Shown in pieces: positions 1-23,231 of a stretch of DNA of 24,366 bases; position 1 is the stretch's first letter, and every line of letters begins with the position of its first letter. The notes beneath the pieces were generated by a model. It worked only from the letters and a program-made list of their open reading frames with translations, was not told the DNA's origin and made no database searches. A program made the position numbers and the translations under genes. The DNA is from Gammaproteobacteria bacterium (lineage in GTDB: Bacteria; Pseudomonadota; Gammaproteobacteria; Steroidobacterales; Steroidobacteraceae): NCBI GenBank assembly GCA_028293725.1, contig JAQGOE010000238.1:1-24366 (forward strand), read 5' to 3'.

Positions 1-126
1 CCCTGCTGGCGCGTGGAACTCGAGCGCCCGCCGCGCTTGACTAATCACCGACCGCATGAGATGAGGTTTAATTACGCGGTCGCGGCTCGCTACACGTCCG
101 CTGCAAACATTCGACGCCCACGGCGC

Positions 127-3100
127 ATGACAGAAAACAATTCCGAGCCCGAGGGCATCGTCCCACCCACACGCGGTGCCGCGGACATATCCGCGCCGGC
201 GGATTTCACCGATCGTGCCAAGCTCGCTTTTCCGGTTGTGGGAATTGGCGCCTCCGCGGGAGGCATCCAAGCGCTGACTGAGCTTCTGCGGGCGATGCCA
301 CCCGACACTGGCATTGCCTATGTCATGGTCCTGCATCTGTCGCCCGATCATCAGAGCCTGGTCGCGGAGATTCTGGGTCGGCACACCGACATGCCGGTGC
401 ATCAGATCCGGCAAGGCATGCGGGTGGAGGCCAATCACGTTTATGTGATCCGACCGGGACATACCCTGACACTGCTCGATGGCACCCTGCACCTGGGCGA
501 GTCTGTGGAAAAGCGCGGCTTTCGGCGTCCGGTCGATGACTTCTTTCGCTCGCTGGCGCGGGAGCAGAAGGAGAAATCGATCATTGTGGTGCTGTCCGGG
601 ATGGGTACGAACGGGACCGCCGGCGCCCAGGCCATCAAGGCCGTAGCGGGGCTCTGTATTGCCCAGGATCCCGAGACCGCGGAATTTCCGGGCATGCCCC
701 AGAGCCTGATCCACGCGGGCTACGCGGACCAGGTCCTGAAAATCTCCGACATTCCCGGGGTGCTGCTTCGCTATGTCCAACATCCCTATCTCGATCCGGA
801 CCCCGCCGGGCGGGCTCGAGCGCAGCAGGAGCTCGAGCGCCATCGCCAGGAGTTGCTCGGCATCATCGATATCGTGCGTACTCGCACGGGCCATGATTTC
901 GCGCCCTACAAGGTGGCGACGGTGTTACGGCGGATCCAACGCCGGATGGGGTTGATAGGCGCTTCCGATCTCGTCTCCTACGCGGCCTTCCTGATTCGGG
1001 AGCCGGCGGAGGTACCGGCGCTCGCGAACGACTTGATGATCAATGTCACCGGATTTTTCCGGGATCCGGAAGCTTGGGAGGCTCTGCGCCTCGCCGTCGT
1101 CCGCCCGATGGTTGAGGAGCGCTCGCCTGACGAGCCGATTCGCGCCTGGGTGACGGCATCCGCGAGTGGTGAGGAGCCCTATTCGCTGGCGATGCTGATT
1201 GCGGAGGAAGCGGAGCGCCTCCATAAAAAGCTCGATGTGAAAATCTTCGCGACCGACACCGCGGAGAAATCCCTCGCGCTGGCCCGCGCCGGCGTCTATC
1301 CCGGCGGCATCGAAGGCGATCTCTCGCCGGAGCGGCTCGACCGCTTCTTCGAAAAGGACGATCACACCTACCGGATCCGCAAACAGTTGCGCGACCAGGT
1401 GGTATTCGCGCCCCAGGATATTCTGCGCGATCCCCCGTTTTCGCGTGTTGACCTCGTCACCTGCCGCAATCTGCTCATTTATCTCGAGCCGGAGGCCCAG
1501 CGCCGGGCACTCGCCCTACTGCATTTCGCTTTGCGCGACGGCGGCCATCTTTTTCTGGGCAACGCCGAGACGCTGGGGCAGGCGGACGAGTACTTCGAAG
1601 TGGTGAGCAAACATTGGCGCATCTATCGCCGCACCGGTCCAGGCCAGCATCGCTTCCGGGATCTGACGGCATTTCCGACCAGGGTTCCGTCACCGCGTCC
1701 GATCGATCGCGTCACCCAGGTGGCGACGATCTCGCGTCCCTCACAAGCAAATTCAATCCAGTTGGCGCTGTTGGACTTGCTCGGTCCACCCACCGCGGTC
1801 GTGGATGCGAACGAGCGCATCGTGTACTTCCACGGCGACTCCGGGCCATTTCTGTTGAGTCCGACCGGCGAGATCACATCGAACTTCATCGAGATGGTTC
1901 GCCTGCCACTACGTGCGTCGGTGCGCGCCGCCCTACGGCAGGCCATAGCAGACAAGCGGCCCACCGTGATCGAGCGAGTCTCATCTGAAGAGGAGGGCGG
2001 TACGATCCGTGTCACTGCGGAGCCCTTGCCTTCTTGGCGCGCTCCGGGGCTGTTCCGGGTGAGTTTTGAAGCCTTGCACCCTGCCTCGCTGGGATCGACG
2101 CGAGCGGCCACGGGGTTGCAGGGACTCGACGTGGCGCGGTCGCTGCCGGCTGTCCACCCGGATGAGACTTTGGAGGCCGAGGTCAAAGGACTGCGCCAGG
2201 AATTACAGCAGAGCGTTGAATCGTTCGAGGCCGCCAACGAGGAGTTGAAAGCCTCGAACGAGGAGGTCACCTCGATCAACGAGGAGCTGCAGAGCGCCAA
2301 CGAGGAGCTCGAGACCGGCAAGGAAGAGCTGCAGTCCTTGAATGAGGAGTTGGCGACCGTCAACACACAGCTGCAGACCAAGATCGGCGAGCTGGAGGGA
2401 CTGACCAATGATCTCAACAACCTGCTCAGCAGTACCGATATCGCGGTCGTGTTTCTGGACCTGCAGCTCAATGTGCGCGGGTTTACCCCCGCCACCAACG
2501 ATCTGTTGGAATTGATTCCGGCGGACATCGGCCGGCCGTTGGCACACCTGGCGCAAAAATTCAACGATGGGGATTTGATCGCCAATGCCCGGCAGGTCAT
2601 TGCGAAGCTCGTCCCCCTGGAATCCGAGGTGAACAGCCATAGCGGACGCTGGTATCTGCGCCGGATTCTGCCTTATCGCACCGAAGACCATCGCATCGCC
2701 GGGGCGGTGATCACGTTCATCGATATCTCGGCTCGCAAGCAGGCGCACCTGACTATCGAGGCCGCCCAAGCACGTCTGCAGGCGGTCATCGAGCACATGC
2801 CCGCCGCAGTGCTGATGGTACAGGCACCCAGCGGCCAACTACTCCTCGGTAATCGACAGGCCTCACGCCTTTTCGGTCAGCCCTTCCCACTGCCTTTCGT
2901 GGGCTCGAATTGGACCGCGACGTACTCGGCCTTCCGAGCCGCGCATCGCGACGGCCGGATATATGGTCCGCAGGAGTGGCCGCTGGCGCGCGCGCTGGCG
3001 AAAGCGGAGACGGTACTGAACGAGGAGATTGAATACCAACTTCACGACGGCTCACGGGGCACTCTCTCGATGAGCGCCTCCCCGGTCTACGGCAGGGGTG

Positions 3101-4728
3101 GCGAAGTAGTGGCCGCCGTCGCCGCATTCTTCGACGTCAGCGAGCGGATTCGGTCCGCGCAGGCGTTACGTGAAAGTGAGGAGCGACTCCGGCTGCTGTT
3201 GGAAAGTGCCCACGATTTCGCCATCTTCATGCTCGATCTCGACGGTCGAATCGTGAACTGGACCGGTGGCGCCGAGAACATCTTCGGATTCAGCGAGCGG
3301 GAAGTGCTCGGGCAACCGGTAGCGCTCGTTTTTACACCTGAGGATCGCGAAGACGGTGTGCCGGAGCGCGAAATGCGCAAGGCCTTCGAGTCGGGTCGCG
3401 CCAGTGATGAGCGTTGGCATTTGCGTAAGGACGGCACGCGATTTTGGGCGAGCGGAGTTCTGACCGCCGCGCGGGACAGCGAGGGGGCTTTGCGCGGCTA
3501 CGTCAAAATCGTGCGCGATCAGACGGAGCGCCGTGCGTTCGAGCGGCAACTTCAAGAGGCGCTTACCGGAGCCGAGAGGCTGCGCGCCACCGCGGAAAGC
3601 GCCAATCGGGCCAAGGACGAGTTCATCGCCACGGTGAGTCACGAGTTGCGCACGCCGCTCAACACAATCCGCTTGTGGTCGAGCATGCTTGCCAAGGGCA
3701 ACGTCCCTGCCGAGCAGGCTAAGGATGGGGTGCTCATGGTGGAGCGCGCCGCCATCGCGCAGACCCAGCTCATCGACGATCTCCTCGATGTGTCGCGTAT
3801 GGCGAACGGCAAGATCCGCCTGGCACTGCGCGAGACCCAACTCTCGAAGGCCATCGAGGACGCCGTTGAATCCGTGCGGCCGGTCGCGGACGGCCGCAAG
3901 GTGCGGCTCGAGTCGGAGCTGAGCCCTGATGTCGGTATGGTGCGCGTCGATCCGGACCGGATTCAACAGGTGGTCTGGAATCTTCTGACGAACGCGGTGA
4001 AGTTCACACCTTCCGGGGGCGACGTCAGCGTTACTTTGCGACGGCTACGGGACGATGTCGAGATTTCAGTTCGCGACACCGGCATCGGCATCCGCGCGGA
4101 GTTGCTGCCGCTCATATTCGAGCGCTTCCGCCAGGCCGATTCCAGCACGACGCGCCAGCATGGCGGTCTGGGCCTCGGGCTCGCGATTGCGAGCCAACTG
4201 GTCCAGTTGCATGGCGGCATCATCACCGCCGAGAGCGACGGCGAGGGGCGCGGCTCCCTGTTCACGGTCAGGCTGCCAAACCTGAGGCGATTGCCGGAGT
4301 TTCATTGGGATGACCCGCTGGCCTCTCAGTCTGAAGCAGGTGATTTGACCGGTATCGACGTGCTGCTGGTGGAGGATCAGGAGTCCACTCGCGAGGCGAC
4401 CACCATCCTGCTGCAACGCGCTGGCGCGCAGGTGCGCGCGGTCGATTCGGCTGCGGCCGCACGCGAAGCCTTTGCCACCCGGCAGCCGAAGTTAGTCATC
4501 GCGGATATCGGGTTGGCCGGCGAAGACGGGTACATGCTCATTCGAGCGCTGCGCAGAATGGAGCGCGAGAAGAATATTGAGCGCGTTGTTGCCGTGGCGG
4601 TCACCGCGTTCGCCGGGCTGGAAGATCGCAAGCGCGCCTTGGCCGCCGGCTTCGACGATCATTTACCCAAGCCCATCGATCCCGAGGGCTTTATTGTTGT
4701 GCTCGCGAGTCTGTTGAAGGGTTCGTGA
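127..4728 (+). CDS. CheB/CheR/multi-PAS hybrid histidine kinase with C-terminal receiver
   Basis: A 1533-residue signalling protein. Seen in order (numbering from the ATG at 127): CheB methylesterase with the GASAGG serine (Ser43); CheR methyltransferase with an SGEEPYS motif and a DLVTCRNLLIYL motif; a PAS-like segment (about 545-640); a coiled coil of repeated NEEL units (about 690-757); three more PAS-like segments (about 762-870, 882-1008, 1017-1138); HisKA with SHELRTPL (His1172); HATPase with NLLTNAVKF and DTGIGI; and a receiver with the acceptor Asp1460 in an ADIG context. Known of the family: these fusions couple methylation-type domains to phosphorelay; the ligand is usually unknown. 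No transmembrane segment is evident, so it is probably cytoplasmic. The usual CheB catalytic Asp in GMGxDG is Asn162 here. The start is uncertain: the frame is open back to a GTG at 13 and an ATG at 61, and none has a clear Shine-Dalgarno; ATG 127 was chosen because the CheB fold begins near residue 36. The 3' end overlaps the convergent gene by 38 bases. Confidence 0.93.
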   Translation: MTENNSEPEGIVPPTRGAADISAPADFTDRAKLAFPVVGIGASAGGIQALTELLRAMPPDTGIAYVMVLHLSPDHQSLVAEILGRHTDMPVHQIRQGMRVEANHVYVIRPGHTLTLLDGTLHLGESVEKRGFRRPVDDFFRSLAREQKEKSIIVVLSGMGTNGTAGAQAIKAVAGLCIAQDPETAEFPGMPQSLIHAGYADQVLKISDIPGVLLRYVQHPYLDPDPAGRARAQQELERHRQELLGIIDIVRTRTGHDFAPYKVATVLRRIQRRMGLIGASDLVSYAAFLIREPAEVPALANDLMINVTGFFRDPEAWEALRLAVVRPMVEERSPDEPIRAWVTASASGEEPYSLAMLIAEEAERLHKKLDVKIFATDTAEKSLALARAGVYPGGIEGDLSPERLDRFFEKDDHTYRIRKQLRDQVVFAPQDILRDPPFSRVDLVTCRNLLIYLEPEAQRRALALLHFALRDGGHLFLGNAETLGQADEYFEVVSKHWRIYRRTGPGQHRFRDLTAFPTRVPSPRPIDRVTQVATISRPSQANSIQLALLDLLGPPTAVVDANERIVYFHGDSGPFLLSPTGEITSNFIEMVRLPLRASVRAALRQAIADKRPTVIERVSSEEEGGTIRVTAEPLPSWRAPGLFRVSFEALHPASLGSTRAATGLQGLDVARSLPAVHPDETLEAEVKGLRQELQQSVESFEAANEELKASNEEVTSINEELQSANEELETGKEELQSLNEELATVNTQLQTKIGELEGLTNDLNNLLSSTDIAVVFLDLQLNVRGFTPATNDLLELIPADIGRPLAHLAQKFNDGDLIANARQVIAKLVPLESEVNSHSGRWYLRRILPYRTEDHRIAGAVITFIDISARKQAHLTIEAAQARLQAVIEHMPAAVLMVQAPSGQLLLGNRQASRLFGQPFPLPFVGSNWTATYSAFRAAHRDGRIYGPQEWPLARALAKAETVLNEEIEYQLHDGSRGTLSMSASPVYGRGGEVVAAVAAFFDVSERIRSAQALRESEERLRLLLESAHDFAIFMLDLDGRIVNWTGGAENIFGFSEREVLGQPVALVFTPEDREDGVPEREMRKAFESGRASDERWHLRKDGTRFWASGVLTAARDSEGALRGYVKIVRDQTERRAFERQLQEALTGAERLRATAESANRAKDEFIATVSHELRTPLNTIRLWSSMLAKGNVPAEQAKDGVLMVERAAIAQTQLIDDLLDVSRMANGKIRLALRETQLSKAIEDAVESVRPVADGRKVRLESELSPDVGMVRVDPDRIQQVVWNLLTNAVKFTPSGGDVSVTLRRLRDDVEISVRDTGIGIRAELLPLIFERFRQADSSTTRQHGGLGLGLAIASQLVQLHGGIITAESDGEGRGSLFTVRLPNLRRLPEFHWDDPLASQSEAGDLTGIDVLLVEDQESTREATTILLQRAGAQVRAVDSAAAAREAFATRQPKLVIADIGLAGEDGYMLIRALRRMEREKNIERVVAVAVTAFAGLEDRKRALAAGFDDHLPKPIDPEGFIVVLASLLKGS

Positions 4729-6119: not shown

Positions 6120-7214
6120 TCAGGCCTCCGAGTCGGCGACCGCCGCCGCGCGGGAGTTCCGCGATGCACGCCGTACCACCACCGCCTTCGCCAAGCGATC
6201 CAACACCTTCACCGAGGCGTCCCAGTCGATACAGGCATCCGTAATGCTCTGTCCATACACGAGCGGTTTGCCGGGGACGAGGTCCTGACGGCCAGCGACC
6301 AGGTGACTTTCAACCATCAAGCCACCGATGCGGCTGTCGCCGGCTTCGATCTGTTGGGCGACGGCGTCGACCACGCCCGGTTGATTTTCGTAACGCTTGC
6401 TGCTGTTGCCGTGACTGACATCGATCATCATGCACGTCGACAGGCCGGTCGAGGCGCCGACTTTCCAGGCCGCGTCGACACTGACAACGTCATAGTTCGG
6501 AGCTTTGCCGCCGCGCAGGATGATGTGACAGTCGGAGTTGCCGGACGTGGTGGCGATGGCGCTGCGCCCCTGTTTGGTGACGGCCAGGAAATGGTGGGCT
6601 TGCGCTGCGGCCTGTACCGCGTCCACCGCGATCTTCACGTTGCCGTCGGTGCCGTTCTTGAATCCCACAGGACAGGACAGCCCCGAGGCGAGCTCGCGAT
6701 GCACCTGGCTTTCCGTCGTGCGTGCGCCAATCGCGCCCCAGGCCACGAAATCCGCGATGTACTGCGGTGTGATCATGTCGAGGAACTCGCAGCCCGCCGG
6801 CAGTCCGAGGCGGTTGATGTCGAGCAACAGGCCGCGGGCCAGCCGCAGACCCTGGTTGATCCGGAAGCTGCCATCGAGATCGGGGTCGTTGATCAAACCT
6901 TTCCAACCTACGGTGGTACGCGGCTTCTCGAAGTAGACGCGCATGATGATCTCGAGGGAGTCCTTGAGTCGCTCGCGTTGTTCCGCCAGGCGCCCGGCAT
7001 ACTCCATCGCCGAGGCAGTATCGTGAATCGAGCACGGCCCGATCACTACCGCCAGCCGGTCGTCCTGGCCGTGAAGGATTCGATGCAAGGACTGTCTCGC
7101 CGCGGTGACCGTGGCTGAGATCTGCGGGGTGCACGGGTGCTCACGCATCAGGTCCTCGGGAGTGGTGAGCTCCCTGATGTCGCGGATACGTAAGTCATCG
7201 GTACGCATATTCAC
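6120..7214 (-). CDS. aroG: 3-deoxy-7-phosphoheptulonate (DAHP) synthase, class I AroG type
   Basis: A 364-residue cytoplasmic enzyme joining phosphoenolpyruvate and erythrose 4-phosphate, the committed step of the shikimate pathway to Phe, Tyr and Trp. The sequence follows E. coli AroG almost without gaps: GPCSIHD (metal-ligand Cys61 at the same number as in E. coli), the long FEKPRTTVGWKGLINDP block, GAIGARTTESQ, GFKNGTDG, DCHIILRGGKAPNY and MIDVSHGNSSK. The GTG start at 7214 is preferred over the ATG at 7208 because a GGAG lies 8 bases upstream and because the residues M-N-x-x-x-DDLRI then align with E. coli AroG from residue 1. A C-terminal extension of about 15 residues (NSRAAAVADSEA) goes beyond the E. 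coli end. The gene is preceded by an aromatic-residue leader peptide and terminator, so attenuation by aromatic amino acid supply is likely, with or without allosteric feedback. Which amino acid inhibits the enzyme cannot be read confidently; AroG-like (Phe-type) similarity is highest. Confidence 0.96.
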   Translation of the reverse strand: MNMRTDDLRIRDIRELTTPEDLMREHPCTPQISATVTAARQSLHRILHGQDDRLAVVIGPCSIHDTASAMEYAGRLAEQRERLKDSLEIIMRVYFEKPRTTVGWKGLINDPDLDGSFRINQGLRLARGLLLDINRLGLPAGCEFLDMITPQYIADFVAWGAIGARTTESQVHRELASGLSCPVGFKNGTDGNVKIAVDAVQAAAQAHHFLAVTKQGRSAIATTSGNSDCHIILRGGKAPNYDVVSVDAAWKVGASTGLSTCMMIDVSHGNSSKRYENQPGVVDAVAQQIEAGDSRIGGLMVESHLVAGRQDLVPGKPLVYGQSITDACIDWDASVKVLDRLAKAVVVRRASRNSRAAAVADSEA

Positions 7215-7222
7215 TTTGTCGG

Positions 7223-7226
7223 CTCC
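7223..7226 (-). promoter_or_regulatory. Ribosome binding site of aroG, supports the GTG start
   Basis: GGAG on the minus strand, 8 bases before the GTG at 7214 and 14 before the in-frame ATG at 7208. The spacing favours GTG initiation. The site lies downstream of the attenuator terminator, so it is transcribed only after read-through. Confidence 0.7.
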
Positions 7227-7247
7227 GGTTCGTGCGGGCCACTGGCG

Positions 7248-7279
7248 AAAAAAAACCGCCAGGGGTCTGGCGGTTTTTT
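7248..7279 (-). terminator. Intrinsic terminator in the aroG leader (attenuator)
   Basis: On the minus strand the arm ACCGCCA (7274-7268), loop GACCCC (7267-7262) and arm TGGCGGT (7261-7255) form a perfect stem. It is extended by A-U pairs and followed by an uninterrupted run of eight T (7255-7248). It ends 33 bases before the aroG start, inside the leader of the gene, so its role is premature termination. On the plus strand the same dyad also has a T run, but no plus-strand gene needs it. Its 5' arm can pair instead with an identical copy of the 3' arm lying upstream (7328-7322), forming an antiterminator. Confidence 0.93.
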
Positions 7280-7300
7280 CGGGATCTGTTTGCTGTTCGT

Positions 7301-7384
7301 TCAGCCGAGTGCAGTCCGTCTACCGCCAATGTGATTTGGCCAGTAAAAGTAAGCAAAACGGTAGCTGCGAGCAGTGAAGTTCAT
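7301..7384 (-). CDS. Aromatic-amino-acid leader peptide of aroG
   Basis: A 27-residue ORF starting at ATG 7384 and stopping with TGA at 7303-7301. It begins MNFTARSYRFAYFYWP: Phe at 3, 10 and 13, Tyr at 8, 12 and 14, Trp at 15, so seven of the first 15 residues are aromatic, with the cluster ending in Tyr-Phe-Tyr-Trp. The next codons encode the first arm of a hairpin. Inference: a ribosome starved of charged tRNA-Phe, -Tyr or -Trp stalls on the cluster and steers the RNA into the antiterminator. No function of the peptide itself is expected. No good Shine-Dalgarno is visible, and the best upstream promoter would start the RNA only a few bases before the ATG, so translation may be nearly leaderless. 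It is too short for ordinary gene callers. Confidence 0.9.
   Translation of the reverse strand: MNFTARSYRFAYFYWPNHIGGRRTALG
7322..7340 (-). promoter_or_regulatory. Attenuator regions 1 and 2 (protector hairpin / antiterminator arm)
   Basis: Region 1, GCCAA (7340-7336), begins in the last base of the Trp15 codon and pairs with TTGGC (7329-7325) in a small protector hairpin. Region 2, TGGCGGT (7328-7322), overlaps that arm and is perfectly complementary to ACCGCCA (7274-7268), the 5' arm of the terminator. Regions 2 and 4 (7261-7255) are identical, so the two structures exclude each other. A ribosome stalled on the Phe/Tyr/Trp cluster would cover region 1, free region 2 and prevent termination. 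Stem energies were not computed. Confidence 0.82.
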
Positions 7385-7393
7385 ACGTGGAGA

Positions 7394-7423
7394 GTAATAG
7401 CACAGACTCCAAACCCGTGACAA
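7394..7423 (-). promoter_or_regulatory. Candidate sigma-70 promoter for the aroG leader transcript
   Basis: Minus-strand TTGTCA (7423-7418), an 18-base spacer, then TATTAC (7399-7394). One mismatch to the -35 and two to the -10 consensus. The predicted start, near 7387, leaves only about three bases before the leader ATG. This is a prediction from consensus only. Confidence 0.5.
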
Positions 7424-7432
7424 GGAGTCTGT
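7402..7432. repeat. Perfect 9-bp inverted repeat overlapping the aroG promoter
   Basis: Arms ACAGACTCC (7402-7410) and GGAGTCTGT (7424-7432) with a 13-base centre. On the minus strand it covers the putative -35 and spacer of the aroG leader promoter and lies 21 bases past the stop codon of the quinohemoprotein gene. It could be an operator or the transcription end of the upstream gene; no T run follows, so a simple intrinsic terminator is less likely. Confidence 0.6.
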
Positions 7433-7452
7433 CTGACAGCCCCCCTGGACCC

Positions 7453-9282
7453 CTAGCGGGCCAGCTCCTGCAGCACATAGGTCGCCACATCCGTCACATT
7501 TTGTTCATTGATGAGGCTGGGATACAGGGCAGGCATCGGCGCCTTGGGGGCCTTGATGAAGGCGATGGTGTCAGCCAGATTGCGGCGTTTTTTGAGCGTA
7601 CTCAACTCGTGACCCGCGACCAGGTCACCCTCCGGGCCGTGGCAGGAGGTGCAGATCTGTGAGTACAACTTGCGACCCTGGGCGGCTGCCGTGGCTGATG
7701 CTGCCGGCTGCGCGCTCGGAGCCCCTCCGCCACCCAAAGCCATAATCACGACGCTCGGTATGCCCAATGCGCCAAACGCGCTGCGGGATACATTGCCCGA
7801 AGCGATCGCGACGTACTGCCTGCCGCCAGCCTCGTAGGTCACAACGCCACCCGCCAACGCGCCACCCGTTTGGGTCTTATAAACGAGTTCGCCGGTCTTG
7901 CTATCGAACACGAGGAAGTTGCCGTTGAGGTCGCCGGTGAGCGTGACTCCACCGGCGGTCGGTGTCACGCCGGCCACCACGGGCTTTTCCGTGTGATATC
8001 GCCAGCGGACCGCCCCGGTTTCGCTGTCCACCGCCGTGACCCAGCCGGTGCTCGGGCCGTCGGGCTCGACCGTGCCACCGAAACTCGCGGCGGCGGGTGA
8101 GTACTTCGTAGTGCCCGATTTCACGATGAAGCACACATCGACCGAGCCGGTGATCAGCGTGTTATTGAGACGATCGAGAGCGGGACCGTTCCACTCGACC
8201 CCTCCCGCGTAGCCCGGGCAGATTCTCACACCCGACGCTGTCGCGCCGTCGGGGCGGGCTTCGATAGTCGTCACAGGCGTGTGAAAGATTTCCTCATGGG
8301 TGTCCCGGTCGATTCCCCTGACATAGCCGTCCTTGCCGGCGAAGGCCAGGACATCTCGGACCTGGCCGTCCCGATACAGGACAGGCGCCGCGGCGATGTC
8401 TTTATCCTCCCAGTCCGCGGGGGTGACCTGGTGCCACCACTTCAATGCCCCGGTACGGGCATCGAGTACCACGATCGAGTCGGTGAACAGGTTGGTTCCG
8501 GGGCGATACGCCTTATCGATGTCCGGCCACGGGTTGCCGACCGGGACAAACAATTCGCCGCTCGAGACATCCAATGTCATCGAGCCCCAGATACCGCCGC
8601 CGCCTGTCTTGGCCGACTTGGGCCGTTTCCAGGTGGCCGCTCCCAACTCGTTGCCGCCGGGTATGGTGTTGAATCGCCACAGCTCCCGGCCCGTTTGCGC
8701 GTCGTAAGCCATGACACGGCCGCGGGCGCCCAGCTCGCTGCCGCTGATTCCCATGTACACCACGCCCGCCCAGGCGAGTGGTACTCCGGTCGCGGCTTCG
8801 CCCAGCCGTGGCGACCCGATGATGCTCTTCCAAAGCAACTTACCTGTCGTCGCATCGAGCGCAATCAGGCGCGCATCTCCGGTTCCGCGAAACACGCGTC
8901 CGTCGAGAACCGCCAACCCACGGTTGGAGGGTGACGCGCGCTCTTCGTCCGGCACGTAGCTGAACTTCCAACGCAAGGCGCACGTTGCCGCGTCTATTGC
9001 AACAGTCTCGAGTCCCGTGTTGGTGTAGATCACACCGTCAACGACGACCAGCCCGGCGTGATACGTGGTCGGCCCGTCAATCTGCAGCCGGCAGACCTCA
9101 CGGAGTTGCGCGGCGTTGGCCGGTGTGATTTCTTTCAGAGGCGAGAATCGCTGGCCGTCGAGATGATTGTTGACTGACAGCCACTGTGACCCGGGGGTCG
9201 GGTTTTGCGCGCGCGCCTGTGGAATCGCGACCGAGACGCAGGCGGCGAGCAGGTACGGAATCCCACGGGTGAGTATTTTCAT
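7453..9282 (-). CDS. Periplasmic PQQ-type quinoprotein fused to cytochrome c
   Basis: A 609-residue exported oxidoreductase. An N-terminal signal peptide (KILTRGIPYLLAACVSVA... ending near ARAQ) is followed by a beta-propeller of tryptophan-docking type repeats (such as DARTGALKWWHQ, DAQTGRELWRF and DSETGAVRWRYHTE). A Pro/Ala-rich linker leads to a C-terminal cytochrome c domain with heme motif CTSCH (residues 544-548) and a likely axial Met near residue 583 (APMPALYP). Known of the family: PQQ alcohol or sugar dehydrogenases oxidise substrates in the periplasm and pass electrons through the fused heme. The vicinal Cys-Cys of classical PQQ alcohol dehydrogenases was not seen, so the substrate is open. 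No PQQ biosynthesis genes lie in the window. GGAAGG 4 bases before the ATG supports the start. The gene is divergent from the DUF1345 gene with 25 bases between the start codons. Confidence 0.9.
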   Translation of the reverse strand: MKILTRGIPYLLAACVSVAIPQARAQNPTPGSQWLSVNNHLDGQRFSPLKEITPANAAQLREVCRLQIDGPTTYHAGLVVVDGVIYTNTGLETVAIDAATCALRWKFSYVPDEERASPSNRGLAVLDGRVFRGTGDARLIALDATTGKLLWKSIIGSPRLGEAATGVPLAWAGVVYMGISGSELGARGRVMAYDAQTGRELWRFNTIPGGNELGAATWKRPKSAKTGGGGIWGSMTLDVSSGELFVPVGNPWPDIDKAYRPGTNLFTDSIVVLDARTGALKWWHQVTPADWEDKDIAAAPVLYRDGQVRDVLAFAGKDGYVRGIDRDTHEEIFHTPVTTIEARPDGATASGVRICPGYAGGVEWNGPALDRLNNTLITGSVDVCFIVKSGTTKYSPAAASFGGTVEPDGPSTGWVTAVDSETGAVRWRYHTEKPVVAGVTPTAGGVTLTGDLNGNFLVFDSKTGELVYKTQTGGALAGGVVTYEAGGRQYVAIASGNVSRSAFGALGIPSVVIMALGGGGAPSAQPAASATAAAQGRKLYSQICTSCHGPEGDLVAGHELSTLKKRRNLADTIAFIKAPKAPMPALYPSLINEQNVTDVATYVLQELAR

Positions 9283-9307: not shown

Positions 9308-9952
9308 ATGATTTACTCGTTCTTCCAGCACATCAAGCTGTTGACGTCGATAGTCGCCGGCGTCGTGCTGTTTTTTGTATTGCCCGTCCATTTGAGCGTC
9401 ATGGCTCGTGTGCTGGTGAGCTGGAACGGCGGTGCCATCCTCTTCTTGACGTGGGTCTTCGTGTGGATGAGCAACTGCACCGCTGAGCAGCTCTATATAA
9501 GGTACAAAGAAGAGGACGAGACCGCGGCCCTCATCCTGGTCATTGTGACCTGTGCGGCACTCCTGAGCCTGGTCGCGATCGTCCTGTTACTGTCGACCGT
9601 CAAGCAGGTTGCCGGCACCGAGCGGGCCCTGCACATCGGCCTGGCCGCCTTGACCGTGACGACCTCCTGGCTGCTCGTGCCGACCATGTTCACTCTTCAC
9701 TACGCGGATGCGTTTTACAGTGCCGGCGAGGACGAGCGGCCGCTCTTGTTTCCGCAGACGCTGCGCCCGGTGTTCTGGGATTTCGCTTATTTTTCCTTCA
9801 CCATAGCCGCTGCCTGCCAGACGGCCGACGTGTCGACCGCCAACACCGCGATCCGCAGAACGGTACTGGCCCACAGTGTGATTGCGTTCGTATTTAACGC
9901 CTCCATCCTGGGCTTCGCGGTCAACATCAGTGCCGGTTTGTTGTCCGGCTAG
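9308..9952 (+). CDS. DUF1345 family inner-membrane protein
   Basis: A 214-residue integral membrane protein with about six hydrophobic segments: roughly residues 10-27, 33-54, 72-96, 105-130, 152-172 and 186-210. Family-typical features are the HYAD segment after the fourth helix, FWDFAYFSFTIAAACQTADV, and the closing helix around AHSVIAFVFNASILGFAVN. Known of the family: DUF1345 proteins have no established function; transport or membrane homeostasis has only been guessed. The ATG at 9308 has no visible Shine-Dalgarno. It is followed 59 bases later by the SapC-family gene on the same strand, so co-transcription is possible but not shown. Confidence 0.86.
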   Translation: MIYSFFQHIKLLTSIVAGVVLFFVLPVHLSVMARVLVSWNGGAILFLTWVFVWMSNCTAEQLYIRYKEEDETAALILVIVTCAALLSLVAIVLLLSTVKQVAGTERALHIGLAALTVTTSWLLVPTMFTLHYADAFYSAGEDERPLLFPQTLRPVFWDFAYFSFTIAAACQTADVSTANTAIRRTVLAHSVIAFVFNASILGFAVNISAGLLSG

Positions 9953-17047: not shown

Positions 17048-18361
17048 ATGCAGGTATCACTGTCCGCCACCGGCGGGCTCGAGCGTCGGCTCGAAGTGGC
17101 CGTTCCCGCCACGGAAATCGCCTCCGAGGTGGAGCAGCGGCTCAAACAGATTTCGCGTACTGCCCGCCTGAAGGGCTTCCGTCCTGGAAAGGCCCCGTAC
17201 GCGGTGGTGCGGAAGCAGTTCGGCGACCAGGTGCACACCGAGGTCGTTAGCGATCTGATGCGCAGCTCGTTCGCGCAGGCTCTCAGCCAGGAAAAGCTGA
17301 CACCCGCGGCGAACCCGCGCATCGAGCCGCTGGCGATGGGACCCGGCTCGGATCTCAAGTACGCGGCTGTTTTCGAGGTGATGCCCGAGGTCAAAGTGGC
17401 CGCGGTGGATAGCATCGCGGTCGAGCGTCCTGCAGCCTCGGTCACCGAAGCGGACATTGACGCCATGCTTGAAAGCATGCGGCGCCAGCGGCCGGTATTC
17501 ACCGCGGTAGAACGTCCGGCGCAGGATACGGATCGTGTGGTCATCGACTACCAGGGCCGCATCGGCGGCAAGCCATTCGATGGCAGCGACGGAACCGATA
17601 TCAACGTCATCATCGGCTCGAAGCAGTCCATGCCCGAGCTCGAGGAAGGCCTCAGAGGCGCGACCGCCGGCGAGAGCCGCACGGTGAGCGTGCCCTTTCC
17701 CGCGGAACACCCGAACAAAGCCGTCGCCGGCCAGGCCGCGGAGCTGCAAGTCACCATAAAGAGGGTCGAGGAGCAGTCTCTTCCGGCGGTGGACGAGGAG
17801 TTCGGTCGCGCGTACGGTGTGGAGGAGGGTGGCGTGGAGGCGTTGCGGGCGGAGGTCCGCAAGAGCATGGAGAGAGAACTCTCGGATGTGATCCGTAACC
17901 GCGTTCGCGGGCAGGTGCTCGATGCACTCTATCGACAGAATCCAGTCGACGTACCCCGCGCGCTACTTGAAGAGCAGGTGCAACAGCTCCAGATTGATAC
18001 GGCACGGCGCATGGGAGTCAAGGATGCCAGCCAGATCCCGGCGCGCGAGCCTTTCGAAGAGCCGGCACGCCGGCGGGTGGCCCTTGGGTTGCTGATGAGC
18101 CAGATCGTCCAGGCGGAACAGATCAAATTGGATCGCGAGCGGGTCCAGACGCGTTTAGGTGATCTGGTCGCCGGCTATCCGGAACCGCAGCAGGAAGAGG
18201 CGCGCCGGGCCTACCTGCAGAATCAGGACGCGATGCGGCAAATAGAGTCCGCGGCACTCGAGGACCAGGTGGTCGAATGGGTGCTGGGACGGGCGAACAT
18301 AACCGACAAGCCGATGACCTTCAAAGAGATCACCGGCTTCGGTCAGGAACAGGCGGCTTAA
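17048..18361 (+). CDS. tig: Trigger factor, ribosome-bound chaperone and prolyl isomerase
   Basis: A 437-residue chaperone that binds the ribosome exit tunnel and folds nascent chains. Three domains are visible: an N-terminal ribosome-binding domain with the signature GFRPGKAP (43-50; usually GFRxGKxP); an FKBP-type prolyl isomerase domain (about 155-245: [21 protein letters not shown]... and the [13 protein letters not shown] segment); and a helical C-terminal arm region to the end. Length is normal for the family. ATG 17048 is preceded by GAGG at 10 bases. The stop codon lies 2 bases before the clpP start, so tig and clpP are almost certainly co-transcribed, an arrangement well known in Gammaproteobacteria. 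Confidence 0.97.
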
Positions 18362-18363
18362 TT

Positions 18364-19002
18364 ATGCAAGAACGCGCATTGAATCTCGTCCCGATGGTCG
18401 TCGAGCAGACGGCGCGCGGTGAGCGGGCTTATGACATCTACTCGCGCCTTCTCAAAGAGCGCGTGGTTTTCATCGTCGGACCGATCGACGACTACATGGC
18501 GAATATTGTCGTGGCGCAGTTGCTGTTCCTCGAGTCGGAGAACCCCGACAAGGACGTCGCGCTATACATCAATTCGCCGGGTGGCGTCGTGACCGCGGGC
18601 TTGGCCATTTACGACACGATGCAATTCATCAAGCCGGACGTGAGCACTATCTGCGTAGGCCAGGCGGCCAGCATGGGCGCGGTGTTGCTCGCCGCTGGCC
18701 AGGCCGGTAAGCGCTTCGCTCTGCCGCATGCGCGGGTGATGATTCACCAGCCGTTGGGCGGCTTCCAGGGGCAGGCGGCGGATATGGAAATCCACGCGAA
18801 GGAAATGCTCGAGACGCGTGACCGGTTGAACAAAATCCTGGCCAAGCACACCGGCCAGAGCGTCGAGCGCATCAAGCACGACACGGACCGCGACCGGTTC
18901 ATGGACTGGAACGAGGCGCAGCGCTACGGTCTGATCGATAAAGTGCTCGAAAAGCGGGGTGAGGTGCCCGTGGCCGCAACCGTGCCTGGAAAACAGACGT
19001 AA
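18364..19002 (+). CDS. clpP: ATP-dependent Clp protease proteolytic subunit
   Basis: A 212-residue serine protease that forms the tetradecameric proteolytic barrel used by ClpX (and ClpA where present). The catalytic triad is complete: Ser103 in QAASMGA, His128 in MIHQPLGG, and Asp177 in DRDRF, with the same spacing as in E. coli ClpP. The N-terminal [25 protein letters not shown] matches the processed start of the family, with only a very short propeptide. The start at ATG 18364 is 2 bases after the tig stop; the frame is open back to 18277 inside tig, but that extension does not resemble ClpP. No strong Shine-Dalgarno is visible, so coupling to tig translation is likely. The partner gene clpX follows after 188 bases. 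Confidence 0.98.
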
Positions 19003-19009
19003 TAGCCCA

Positions 19010-19057
19010 TAGTTCATGTGAACTACGGTCACAATCTGAAAATAGTGAACTCCGTCC
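19010..19057. repeat. Inverted and direct repeats between clpP and clpX
   Basis: TAGTTCA (19010-19016) and TGAACTA (19019-19025) are perfect 7-bp arms around two bases. The right arm belongs to GTGAACTACG, which recurs 28 bases downstream as GTGAACTCCG (19046-19055). The set resembles a tandem operator. No T run follows, so it is not an intrinsic terminator for clpP. No regulator can be assigned. Confidence 0.45.
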
Positions 19058-19100
19058 TACAACTCCTATCCACACAACGACTTAGCCGTGTACCGGCGCT

Positions 19101-19130
19101 TTGCGTAGCGGCCGGACACCGTGCTATAAG
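19101..19130 (+). promoter_or_regulatory. Candidate promoter of clpX
   Basis: TTGCGT (19101-19106), an 18-base spacer and TATAAG (19125-19130), 60 bases before the clpX ATG. A moderate sigma-70 match; it suggests clpX can be transcribed independently of tig-clpP. Confidence 0.5.
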
Positions 19131-19190
19131 AACCTGCGCCCCCTCCTTCAGCGGGTCTACTGATGGGGTGCGAGTTCATGAGGGCCTTCG

Positions 19191-20510
<1,320 letters not shown>

Positions 20511-20535
20511 TCGAAGTCTTTTAAAAGTTGGGTGC

Positions 20536-20557
20536 AGGTGCAGCTCCGGCTGCACCT
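20536..20557 (+). repeat. Strong hairpin after clpX
   Basis: Perfect 9-bp arms AGGTGCAGC (20536-20544) and GCTGCACCT (20549-20557) with a TCCG tetraloop, 25 bases past the clpX stop. No T run follows, so it could be a rho-dependent or mRNA-stabilising 3' end. A small CTTTTAAAAG palindrome (20518-20527) lies just before it. Confidence 0.6.
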
Positions 20558-20616
20558 CCCGCCGCAGTCGCTCCGTGCCAATCCGCGTCGCGTTTGTACA
20601 AGCGCGGCCGAGACCA

Positions 20617-20644
20617 TTGAAACACGGCGCTCCCAACTCCATTC
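20617..20644 (+). promoter_or_regulatory. Candidate heat-shock (sigma-32) promoter of lon
   Basis: TTGAAA (20617-20622), a 14-base spacer, and CTCCATTC (20637-20644), close to the sigma-32 consensus TTGAAA ... CCCCATNT. It lies 85 bases upstream of the lon GTG. lon is heat-shock controlled in E. coli, which fits. A weaker alternative is TTGTCC (20671-20676) with TTATGT (20693-20698). Confidence 0.5.
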
Positions 20645-20729
20645 TCGATAAACTAGCACTGCGACACAGATTGTCCCCACTCGCAACGGGGATTATGTTC
20701 CATGCCGTTTCGCCACCGAGGGCCTGAGC

Positions 20730-23231
20730 GTGTCCGAACCCACTAATCCGTCCTCACCTGTCACGACACCAACTACAACAACGACCAGCGGCATAGAGAA
20801 CGTGCCGGTGTTGCCCCTCAGGGATGTAGTCGTTTATCCCCACATGGTTATCCCGCTCTTCGTAGGGCGAGAGAAATCCATCCAGGCGCTCGACGTCGCC
20901 ATGCGCTCCGACAAGCGGATCATGCTTGTCGCGCAGAAGCAGGCGGACGTCGACGATCCGAAGGCTGACGACCTGTACCGCATCGGTACGGTCGCCACCA
21001 TCCTGCAGCTGTTGAAGCTTCCTGATGGCACCGTCAAGGTGCTGGTCGAGGGCGTGGATCGCGCGCGCATCGAAAGACTGCACGCGGGCGATTACTACTC
21101 CTCCGATGCCACGTTGCTTCCGGACGTCGAGGCGTACGACGAGCGCGAGATGGACGTGCTGGCACGTTCGGTGATCTCGCAGTTCGAGCAGTACGTGAAG
21201 CTGAATAAGAAAGTGCCGCCCGAGGTGCTGACGGCGCTCGCCGGCATCGAGCACGCGGGCCGTCTCGCCGACACCGTCGCCGCTCACATGTCGCTGAAGC
21301 TAGCGGAGAAGCAGAAGGTTCTCGAGATCCTCGACGTGCGCAAGCGCCTCGAGCACATCCTCGTCGCCATCGAAGGCGAGATGGACGTGTTGCAGATCGA
21401 GAAGCGTATCCGCGGCCGTGTCAAAGCGCAGATGGAGAAGAGCCAGCGCGAGTACTACCTGAATGAGCAGATGAAGGCCATTCAGAAAGAGCTCGGTGAG
21501 ATGGACGAGGGCGGTAACGAGATTACCGAGCTCGAGCAGAAGATCGCCAAGGCCGGCATGCCGAAAGAGGCGCGCGAGAAGGCTAACGGTGAGCTCAACA
21601 AGCTGAAGATGATGTCGCCCATGTCGGCTGAAGCGACGGTGGTGAGGAACTACATCGACTGGCTCGTGAAGGTGCCGTGGAAGAAGCGGACCAAAATCAT
21701 CAAGGACATCGCCCGCGCCGAGAAGGTGTTGGACGAGGATCACTATGGGCTGGACAAGGTGAAGGAGCGCATCGTCGAGTACCTGGCTGTTCAACAGCGG
21801 GTCGACAAGCTGCGCGGCCCCATCCTGTGTCTCGTAGGTCCGCCAGGCGTTGGTAAGACTTCGCTCGGACAGAGCATCGCCCGCTCGACGAACCGTAAGT
21901 TCGTGCGTATGTCGCTCGGCGGCGTGCGTGACGAGGCGGAGATCCGCGGTCACCGGCGCACGTATATCGGCTCGATGCCCGGCAAGATCGTGCAGAACAT
22001 GTCGAAGGCGGGTGTACACAACCCGCTGTTCCTCCTGGACGAAGTCGACAAGATGTCGATGGACTTCCGCGGCGACCCGTCATCGGCGCTGCTCGAAGTG
22101 CTCGATCCGGAGCAGAACGCGACCTTCAACGACCATTACCTCGAGGTCGATCTCGACCTGTCGGAAGTGATGTTTGTCTGCACGGCAAACAGCCTCAACA
22201 TCCCGGCTCCGTTGTTGGATCGTATGGAAGTCATCCGTCTGCCCGGTTACACGGAAGACGAGAAGATGAACATCGCCCGGCGCTACCTGGTGCCGAAGCA
22301 GATGAAGAACAACGGCCTGAGGGACGATGAGCTGAAGGTGTCGGATCCGGCGCTCATGGACATCGTGCGTTACTACACGCGCGAGGCCGGTGTGCGTAAT
22401 CTCGAGCGCGAAGTTGCCAAGATCGGCCGTAAGGCCGTGAAGCAACTGCTGCTCGAGAAGAAGGATCAGAAGCAGATCGCGATCACGCCCCGGAATCTCG
22501 ATAAGTACCTGGGCGTGAGGCGCTTCCGCTACGGCAAGGCTGAGGACCAGAACCGTGTTGGCCAGGTGACCGGACTTGCTTGGACCGAGGTGGGTGGCGA
22601 GTTGCTCACCATCGAAGCCGCTGTCGTCCCGGGCAAGGGCAAGCTGCAACACACCGGCCAATTGGGCGAGGTGATGCAGGAGTCCATCCAGGCGGCGATG
22701 ACGGTTGTCCGCAGCCGTGCGCAGATACTGGGTCTCGAGCCCGAGTTCTATCAGAAGCAAGACGTCCACTTGCACATCCCGGAGGGGGCGACCCCCAAGG
22801 ACGGCCCGAGCGCGGGTATCGGTATGTGCACGGCGCTGGTTTCTGCCCTGACGAAGATTCCGGTCCGCTCGGATGTGGCGATGACTGGCGAGATCACGCT
22901 GCGTGGGGAAGTTCTCCCCATCGGCGGCCTGAAGGAGAAGCTCCTCGCGGCTCACCGTGGTGGGATCAAGACGGTGCTCATCCCTCATGAGAACACGAAG
23001 GACCTGGTCGAGATTCCCGACAACATCAAGGGGAATCTCGAGATCAAGCCGGTGAAGTGGATTGATGAGGTCCTGACCCTCGCCCTGACGCAGCAGCCTG
23101 CCGTTACCGTGGACGGTGCCGCAGCCGCTGCCGCTGCTGCTGCCGCGTCCGCCGCCTCGGCAGGGGGTGTTCCTGCCTCTGCTAGCGACGGCAGCAAGCG
23201 CCGCCGTAAGCAGCCGGCTCCGGCGCACTAA
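20730..23231 (+). CDS. lon: ATP-dependent protease La
   Basis: An 833-residue AAA+ serine protease that degrades misfolded and regulatory proteins. Visible parts: N-terminal substrate-binding domain ([26 protein letters not shown] and onward), a coiled-coil region ([14 protein letters not shown]), Walker A GPPGVGKT (370-377), Walker [10 protein letters not shown], and the protease domain with catalytic Ser694 in PKDGPSAG and Lys737 in GGLKEK, the same 43-residue spacing as in E. coli. The start is GTG with GAGG 8 bases upstream; the residues before the conserved domain are Thr/Pro-rich. The C-terminus is unusual: after the normal domain end it adds about 40 residues, with an almost pure alanine run, a Ser/Gly part and a basic KRRRK patch. 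No hupB gene follows, unlike many Gammaproteobacteria. Confidence 0.98.

Follow-up and report, generated by a model that had tools for sequence, protein, structure and literature searches.

How is the first common enzyme of aromatic amino acid synthesis controlled in a bacterium whose aroG gene is preceded by a short reading frame crowded with Phe, Tyr and Trp codons? In the usual account of Escherichia coli, this entry point is governed by the TyrR and TrpR repressors together with feedback inhibition. The trpL, pheL and pheST leaders of E. coli combine an open reading frame (ORF) rich in end-product codons with competing stems and a T run; each of them has a Shine-Dalgarno sequence and senses one amino acid, for a terminal branch or a synthetase. 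We analysed a stretch of 24,366 nucleotides (the window) from a member of the Steroidobacteraceae in which aroG follows such an ORF. Our main reading, to which sequence comparison and modelling lead us to give a probability of about 0.84, is that a ribosome-mediated attenuator would raise DAHP synthase when charged Phe or Tyr tRNA, and in the window probably Trp tRNA, is low.

Layout of the aroG leader in the window

The elements discussed below are as follows, in the order of transcription.

7453..9282, minus strand: upstream gene, PQQ-dehydrogenase-like with a C-terminal cytochrome c part
7418..7423, minus strand: predicted -35 element TTGTCA
7394..7399, minus strand: predicted -10 element TATTAC, with 9 nt between its end and the leader AUG
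7301..7384, minus strand: leader peptide ORF of 27 codons, product MNFTARSYRFAYFYWPNHIGGRRTALG and stop, with F3, Y8, F10, Y12, F13, Y14 and W15
7336..7345, minus strand: region 1, the protector 5' arm TACTGGCCAA in the minimum-energy fold, codons Tyr14 to Asn17
7322..7329, minus strand: region 2, TTGGCGGT, a partner of region 1 (protector) or region 3 (antiterminator)
7268..7274, minus strand: region 3, ACCGCCA, the terminator 5' arm and antiterminator 3' arm
7255..7261, minus strand: region 4, TGGCGGT, the terminator 3' arm, with the same letters as 7328-7322
7248..7255, minus strand: eight-T run of the intrinsic terminator, its first T doubling as the stem-closing base
6120..7214, minus strand: aroG, class I DAHP synthase, starting at GTG 7214 or ATG 7208

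The first-pass annotation had described a 27-codon leader with three Phe, three Tyr and one Trp in its first 15 codons, and the coordinates agreed when re-read. Two of its further observations also held: TGGCGGT occurs twice (7328-7322 and 7261-7255), each copy being able to pair with ACCGCCA at 7274-7268, and 33 bases separate the T run (7255-7248) from the GTG at 7214. The protector stem GCCAA/TTGGC that it placed at the Trp codon is present, but it starts at the third base of that codon (7340) and not at the first as claimed; the minimum-energy fold lengthens the 5' arm to 7345-7336, across codons 14 to 17. The terminator hairpin, with arms CCGCCAG/CTGGCGG and the T run after it, lies between the leader ORF and aroG, whose product matches TIGR00034 at 529.9 bits (cut-off 173.2). 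A consensus scan for terminators and promoters listed no site within 7100-7600. In our reading, it missed the terminator because the A6/T6 flanks are absorbed into the stem, which leaves no free T run by the scan rule, and the promoter because the proposed -10 fails the rule for T at position 6.

The 137-nt stretch folded with a z-score of -4.1, and none of 200 shuffles was equally stable. Among 390 short ORFs of 12-60 codons in the window, this leader alone has 7 aromatic codons in its first 15. A density of 6 aromatic codons in 10 was reached by the leader and one other window ORF, the in-frame 3' end of the gene at 9308-9952(+), and by no ORF in 20 block-shuffled windows. A chance ORF joined to a terminator was rejected on the strength of these shuffled windows and of the conservation described below.

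The upstream neighbour (7453-9282, minus strand) would encode a PQQ-dependent alcohol-dehydrogenase-like protein with a C-terminal cytochrome c domain. Elsewhere in the window, 13-4728(+) encodes a 1571-residue fusion of CheB methylesterase, CheR methyltransferase, PAS domains, histidine kinase and response regulator, and 17048-23231(+) has the order tig-clpP-clpX-lon, from trigger factor to Lon protease, with a tRNA-Leu upstream and a tRNA-Val downstream.

Distribution of the leader and its inheritance with AroG

Loci were sampled by an AroG scan of genome contigs, from which the best 80 of 593 relatives, at identities of no more than 75%, were taken; duplicate loci (L081-L086) were excluded from the counts. 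An aromatic-rich short ORF was found upstream of aroG in most of these best 80 of 593. A fixed rule required a called terminator and a run of 10 codons with 4 or more aromatic residues; by it, leader and terminator were present at 71 of the 80 loci (best 80 of 593), in alpha-, beta- and gammaproteobacteria. A covariance model rescued six more at 57-90 bits, namely L042 and five Devosia loci that the rule had missed and that have a mismatch in the terminator, and it had no match at L050, L074 and L080 (3/80, best 80 of 593). The alignment of relatives' aroG leaders that the first-pass annotation had proposed as a check thus showed leader, antiterminator and terminator all to be conserved. At L042 ('Candidatus Burkholderia humilis', 1311-1444), the RNA parts scored 90 bits, the leader frame is altered and an ORF runs through the terminator; this is perhaps a decayed attenuator in a symbiont. 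The contig of L005 bears the label Mycobacterium sp. KBS0706, which looks wrong, since both its AroG and its leader place it with Inquilinus (alphaproteobacteria).

In 29 new gammaproteobacterial loci, which represent best matches only from 369 genomes (272 of which had a match), the attenuator was present in all 4 at an AroG identity of at least 69% and absent in all 25 at 66% or less. The covariance model gave 10 strong matches (at least 57 bits) in 240 alphaproteobacterial and 185 gamma- and betaproteobacterial genomes, scanned with stricter filters at which weak matches were lost; nine lay directly upstream of aroG and one at a contig end, and two of the ten genomes (G002 and G006) had contributed rows to the model. 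None of the weak matches examined (21 loci, at most 42 bits) was beside aroG. The weak match L123 was rejected as a gene end with a terminator, the gene resembling argB by eye, and L124 for its lack of an aromatic leader.

On an AroG tree of 111 rows built by a quick method, attenuator presence needed 6 changes versus 26.6 when shuffled, and the starred branches force at least 2. The window's AroG grouped with those of xanthomonads and alphaproteobacteria, in a set of 35 rows (SH-aLRT 95) that comprises xanthomonads, alphaproteobacteria and gammaproteobacterial genomes and carries the attenuator in 35/35. When five new matches were added (116 rows), 6 changes were still needed, and the window's set grew to 39 rows, all with the attenuator (99). 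The attenuator was absent in 19 of 20 second class I DAHP synthase copies examined, these being 19 of 29 extra copies plus one of G113. The sole copy with it, L191, is the second class I copy of the Devosia genome in which L018 lies. The idea that class I DAHP synthases in general have this attenuator was rejected on the 25 gammaproteobacterial loci at 66% identity or less and the 19 second copies without it. The tree pattern together with the second copies indicates that the attenuator goes mainly with one AroG lineage. Identity is not a strict cut-off for its presence, because the AroG of G113 (L149) is only 60% identical to the window's yet is preceded by the attenuator, with a Trp-containing leader; this AroG sits on a long branch of unsure place, nearest betaproteobacteria.

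Class I DAHP synthase was found in all 50 attenuator-carrier genomes and class II in 20 of them, which were 20 of the 21 genomes from the window's clade and 0 of the 29 others. In those 20 genomes, the attenuated AroG would act alongside class II, as a second enzyme that responds to starvation. The Stenotrophomonas assembly (a metagenome-assembled genome, MAG) has AroG as its sole class I copy, and the search for class II there gave no match.

The gene at 7453-9282 shares its strand with the leader and stops 68 nt ahead of the leader start, and the hairpin might on that account be read as an ordinary terminator of this gene next to a chance ORF. We consider this exceedingly improbable: leader, region 2 and terminator are conserved jointly before aroG, a crude measure places the longest open frame upstream of the leader on the other strand at 49 of 79 loci, and no comparable ORF arose in the 20 shuffled windows. 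No relative with the terminator and without the aromatic leader was noticed, by a script that considered only terminators adjoining leader ORFs.

Predicted start site, pairing regions and the modelled effect of a stalled ribosome

The promoter candidate in the window, TTGTCA-18-TATTAC, ends 9 nt short of the ATG, and consensus spacing would put the start of transcription near 7387-7384, giving an RNA with little or nothing ahead of the AUG. In 37 of 81 homologues, a strong -35/-10 pair is placed so that 5-10 nt lie between the end of the -10 and the leader start codon, compared with a mean of 2.2 and a maximum of 7 (of 81) in shuffles and with 3/81 in control DNA 100-160 nt upstream. In the window's clade, the arrangement was found in 30/35 leaders, and five new alphaproteobacterial leaders have a like one by eye. 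A Shine-Dalgarno match of at least 5/6 was found in none of the 81 leaders (4/6 matches in 9), and none was seen in the window. Because the promoter is so close to the start codon, a leaderless leader mRNA is predicted. In several Oxalobacteraceae the -10 sits 23-27 nt upstream, so the RNA there would have a short 5' part.

The pairing regions were compared in an alignment of 45 of 49 non-redundant rows, L012, L060, L020 and L017 having been dropped by hand for an over-long or misplaced region 4. The cores of region 3 (CCGCC) and region 4 were invariant in these 45 leaders, that of region 2 was nearly so, and the T run was conserved. Region 2 was compared in 75 homologues, excluding L036, in which the rule used found no region 2; L001 and L091 were excluded later as too long. 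Its core was GGCGG in 66, GGTGG in 4 and GGCAG in 5, that is, fully able to pair with CCGCC in 70/75 (4 through a G-U pair) and with one mismatch in 5/75. The region 2 call was wrong in L053, and in L010, L034 and L068 it was one codon off. In the leader frame, it is read in frame 2 in 66 leaders, in frame 1 in 8 (7 without L053, misassigned by the script) and in frame 0 in the window alone. Since the nucleotides are kept across different frames, region 2 is conserved as RNA and not as peptide.

The compensatory changes that the first-pass annotation had asked for in all three stems were found in the 3:4 stem. Terminator cells were 95.6% paired, with 20 double-change cells, and an A-U to G-C change occurred in 16 rows at a pair outside the core; three of five covariation measures were reached by 0/500 shuffles, and the other two were unremarkable (reached in 187 and 193 of 500 shuffles). 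Covariation in the 2:3 stem was weak (53/500 shuffles as high), because its core hardly varies. At the outer position, regions 2/3/4 have the letters T/A/T at 14 of the 75 loci and C/G/C at 11, and region 2 is unpaired there in 48/75. The window's 1:2 stem did not stand above synonymous sequences, upstream pairing of region 2 being 0.90 versus 0.86; over the 75 homologues, the protector value was 0.71 versus 0.58 (Wilcoxon p = 7e-4), with 23/75 in the reverse direction.

In a stall model, the transcript up to region 4 was folded with a ribosome footprint at each codon. When the footprint front was set at 13 or 15 nt, a ribosome with any codon of the window leader up to 15 in its A site permitted 2:3 pairing and one at codon 16 did not; with fronts of 9 and 11 nt, the permissive edge was at codon 16. 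In 44 of 66 leaders (67%; 10 of 76 had no clear boundary and were left out), the last permissive codon and the last aromatic codon of the cluster were at most one codon apart, compared with a mean of 18% and a maximum of 35% when residues were permuted. Counted from its first base, the last aromatic codon lies 14 nt before region 2 in 33/75 leaders and 11-20 nt before it in 70/75, a spacing close to that of the ribosome front edge. The model also produced counter-evidence: 103 of 514 aromatic codons failed to permit 2:3 pairing, and 522 of 1338 other codons permitted it. Up to the cluster end in 30 clade leaders, 192/256 non-aromatic versus 143/180 aromatic codons were permissive; non-aromatic codons being permissive about as often, only the downstream boundary is informative.

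Default termination of the untranslated RNA was not supported by equilibrium folding, in which the window RNA without region 4 formed 2:3 at 0.86. Because 2:3 is favoured in untranslated RNA and a ribosome at the stop codon frees region 2, termination must depend either on the ribosome's movement or on the kinetics of folding. With this qualification, the trp/phe-type attenuator proposed in the first-pass annotation is supported by the conserved leader, antiterminator and terminator, the double changes in the terminator and the stall geometry. Comparison and folding thus indicate a real and conserved ribosome-mediated attenuator at the first common enzyme of aromatic synthesis.

The attenuator may be pictured as follows. 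Transcription would begin at the leader AUG or directly beside it, and translation of the peptide would do without a Shine-Dalgarno sequence. When the aromatic codons are passed freely, the ribosome would cover region 2 (GGCGG), region 3 would pair with region 4, and RNA polymerase would halt at the T run. A ribosome stalled at Phe10, Tyr12, Phe13, Tyr14 or Trp15 would have its front just short of region 2 and would open the protector of codons 14 to 17; the freed region 2 would then pair with region 3, no terminator would form, and aroG would be transcribed.

Known leader peptides and the amino acids possibly sensed

No Rfam family reaches its cut-off for this RNA. Membership in Phe_leader (RF01859) was rejected, the window scoring 20.3 bits and L004 27.9 bits versus a curated cut-off of 55. 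Attenuators of DAHP synthase genes are already known elsewhere. In Corynebacterium glutamicum, as described in part of PMC11802643, which reports Neshat et al. 2014, a leader peptide with the motif Phe-Tyr-Phe precedes the DAHP synthase gene in aroR-aroF, and ribosome-mediated attenuation responds to Phe and not to Tyr. By that description, the system resembles the present one in its arrangement and differs in its phylum, in having no Trp in the motif and in responding to Phe only. The same source gives the pathway roles of the E. coli trp and phe genes. The window's leader is like E. coli trpL, pheL and pheST in its ORF of end-product codons, competing stems and T run, and unlike them in its mixed aromatic codons, its place at the first common enzyme and its lack of a Shine-Dalgarno sequence.

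Among further candidates, each known to us from part of its source, uORFC-13-1 of Acholeplasma (PMC8632094) is an upstream ORF (uORF) that has one or more Phe codons and stands, with a terminator, ahead of aroF, a DAHP synthase gene; it is known from 24 sequences of one genus and environmental DNA; going by the description, it shares this layout with the window and differs in its organisms and in having been proposed there from comparison only. Shewanella aroF is tabled as 'Attenuator sensing tyr-tRNA' (PMC2659441 Table 3), after a proposal for E. coli (Camakaris 1980), and two uORFs of shikimate genes with F and Y appear in a five-genome survey, in a figure legend without organism names (PMC6429828). 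What both have in common with the window is the idea that a DAHP synthase or shikimate gene is attenuated through tRNA sensing, and the parts of these sources available to us describe no leader resembling the window's. In the corresponding part of a proteobacterial regulon survey, attenuation is named only for trp and pheA (PMC5343134), and excerpts of PMC2965389, PMC2873474, PMC10219788 and PMC4117421 contain nothing on aroG. The proteobacterial aroG version is thus apparently undescribed in the open full-text literature searched, partly in excerpt, and an earlier mention is possible. In Ralstonia, aroG1- and aroG2-lacZ fusions rose 10-20-fold when the other gene was deleted and fell with Phe, according to the passage seen in PMC6379268; these data would fit attenuation by analogy, if those genes carry the leader.

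If the main reading is true, a sequence-defined RNA switch acts at the enzyme that E. coli places under repressors, in the window's organism and in soil- and plant-associated groups that include Bradyrhizobium, Mesorhizobium, Devosia, Dyella, Burkholderia and Massilia, and these groups would have a separate control logic. The switch bears on attenuation by leaders without a Shine-Dalgarno sequence, and could serve engineering as a reporter of aromatic starvation. Sensing of several amino acids by one leader would become testable through the natural series with and without Trp.

Which of the amino acids may be sensed was approached through the leaders themselves. Phe was present in all 81 sensor stretches, Tyr in 79 and Trp in 53. 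In the first sample (best 80 of 593), each of the 35 clade leaders has exactly one Trp, and their Phe and Tyr numbers vary (totals 75 and 93). These 35 are not independent, because the leaders have a common ancestry and were picked by the resemblance of their AroG to that of the window. In the same sample from the best 80 of 593, one Trp was found in 14 of 17 Burkholderia-group leaders, and Trp was lacking in 16 of 17 Oxalobacteraceae and in 6 of 6 leaders from Alcaligenaceae and near relatives. The RNA model led to five more alphaproteobacterial leaders, of which L118 has Trp and L117, L119, L121 and L122 have none. The suggestion that Trp is constant in the window's clade is therefore not upheld, and these new leaders lower the odds for three-way sensing. 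On an 86-row leader tree, the Trp state needed 7 changes versus 25.5 when shuffled (minimum 19), and Trp15 of the window sits at the edge of the permissive stretch in the stall model. Judged from the sequences, Trp is a lineage feature of the leaders, and its sensing alongside Phe and Tyr is possible. The joint sensing of all three amino acids put forward in the first-pass annotation accordingly finds backing in the 35 clade leaders and is weakened by the 28 of 81 leaders, and the 4 of 5 new alphaproteobacterial ones, that have no Trp. A rule linking leader Trp to the cell's other DAHP synthases was sought in classes I and II and rejected, since the Burkholderia group has Trp without class II.

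Two alternatives accept the attenuator and differ on what it does. The same switch might sense Phe, perhaps with Tyr, the lone Trp codon being a passenger. The C. glutamicum leader, in which only Phe limitation is described to act, speaks for this, as do the presence of Phe in every sensor stretch and the leaders of Oxalobacteraceae, Alcaligenaceae and their near relatives and most new alphaproteobacteria, which show that the switch does not need Trp. The single Trp kept in all 35 clade leaders while Phe and Tyr numbers vary, the few changes of Trp state on the tree and the position of Trp15 at the permissive edge argue against it, and we regard it as a serious possibility, though less than an even bet. 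The other alternative is that the attenuator RNA or the leader peptide acts in trans as well, like rnTrpL and peTrpL of Sinorhizobium meliloti. The trpL leader ORF there is reported as leaderless (excerpts of PMC10117765), and the predicted leaderless start and small terminated RNA of the window recall it (see also PMC7298713); S. meliloti trpL differs in controlling trpE(G) and sensing Trp only. The peptide part encoded by region 2 is read in different frames among relatives and is therefore not conserved. This speaks against the trans reading, which we regard as unlikely.

The attenuator reading can be joined with these observations into a fuller account, which we hold tentatively, at a little short of even odds. 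In it, an OR gate would let a stall at any Phe, Tyr or single Trp codon switch on the first enzyme of the shared pathway. The gate would be an old cassette inherited with one AroG type across alpha-, beta- and gammaproteobacteria, and its leader would be translated leaderless in the clade of alphaproteobacteria, xanthomonads and the window. Trp would be tuned lineage by lineage, present in the window, xanthomonads, many alphaproteobacteria and Burkholderia and absent from Oxalobacteraceae, Alcaligenaceae and other alphaproteobacteria.

Modelling, in the part of PMC1183508 consulted, has it that synonymous codon choice determines the sensitivity of an attenuator. Phe codons were TTT in 227 of 289 cases in the leaders (79%) versus 66 of 505 in the aroG genes (13%), and Tyr codons were TAT in 103/190 versus 145/476. 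The window leader has TTT twice, TTC once and TAC three times.
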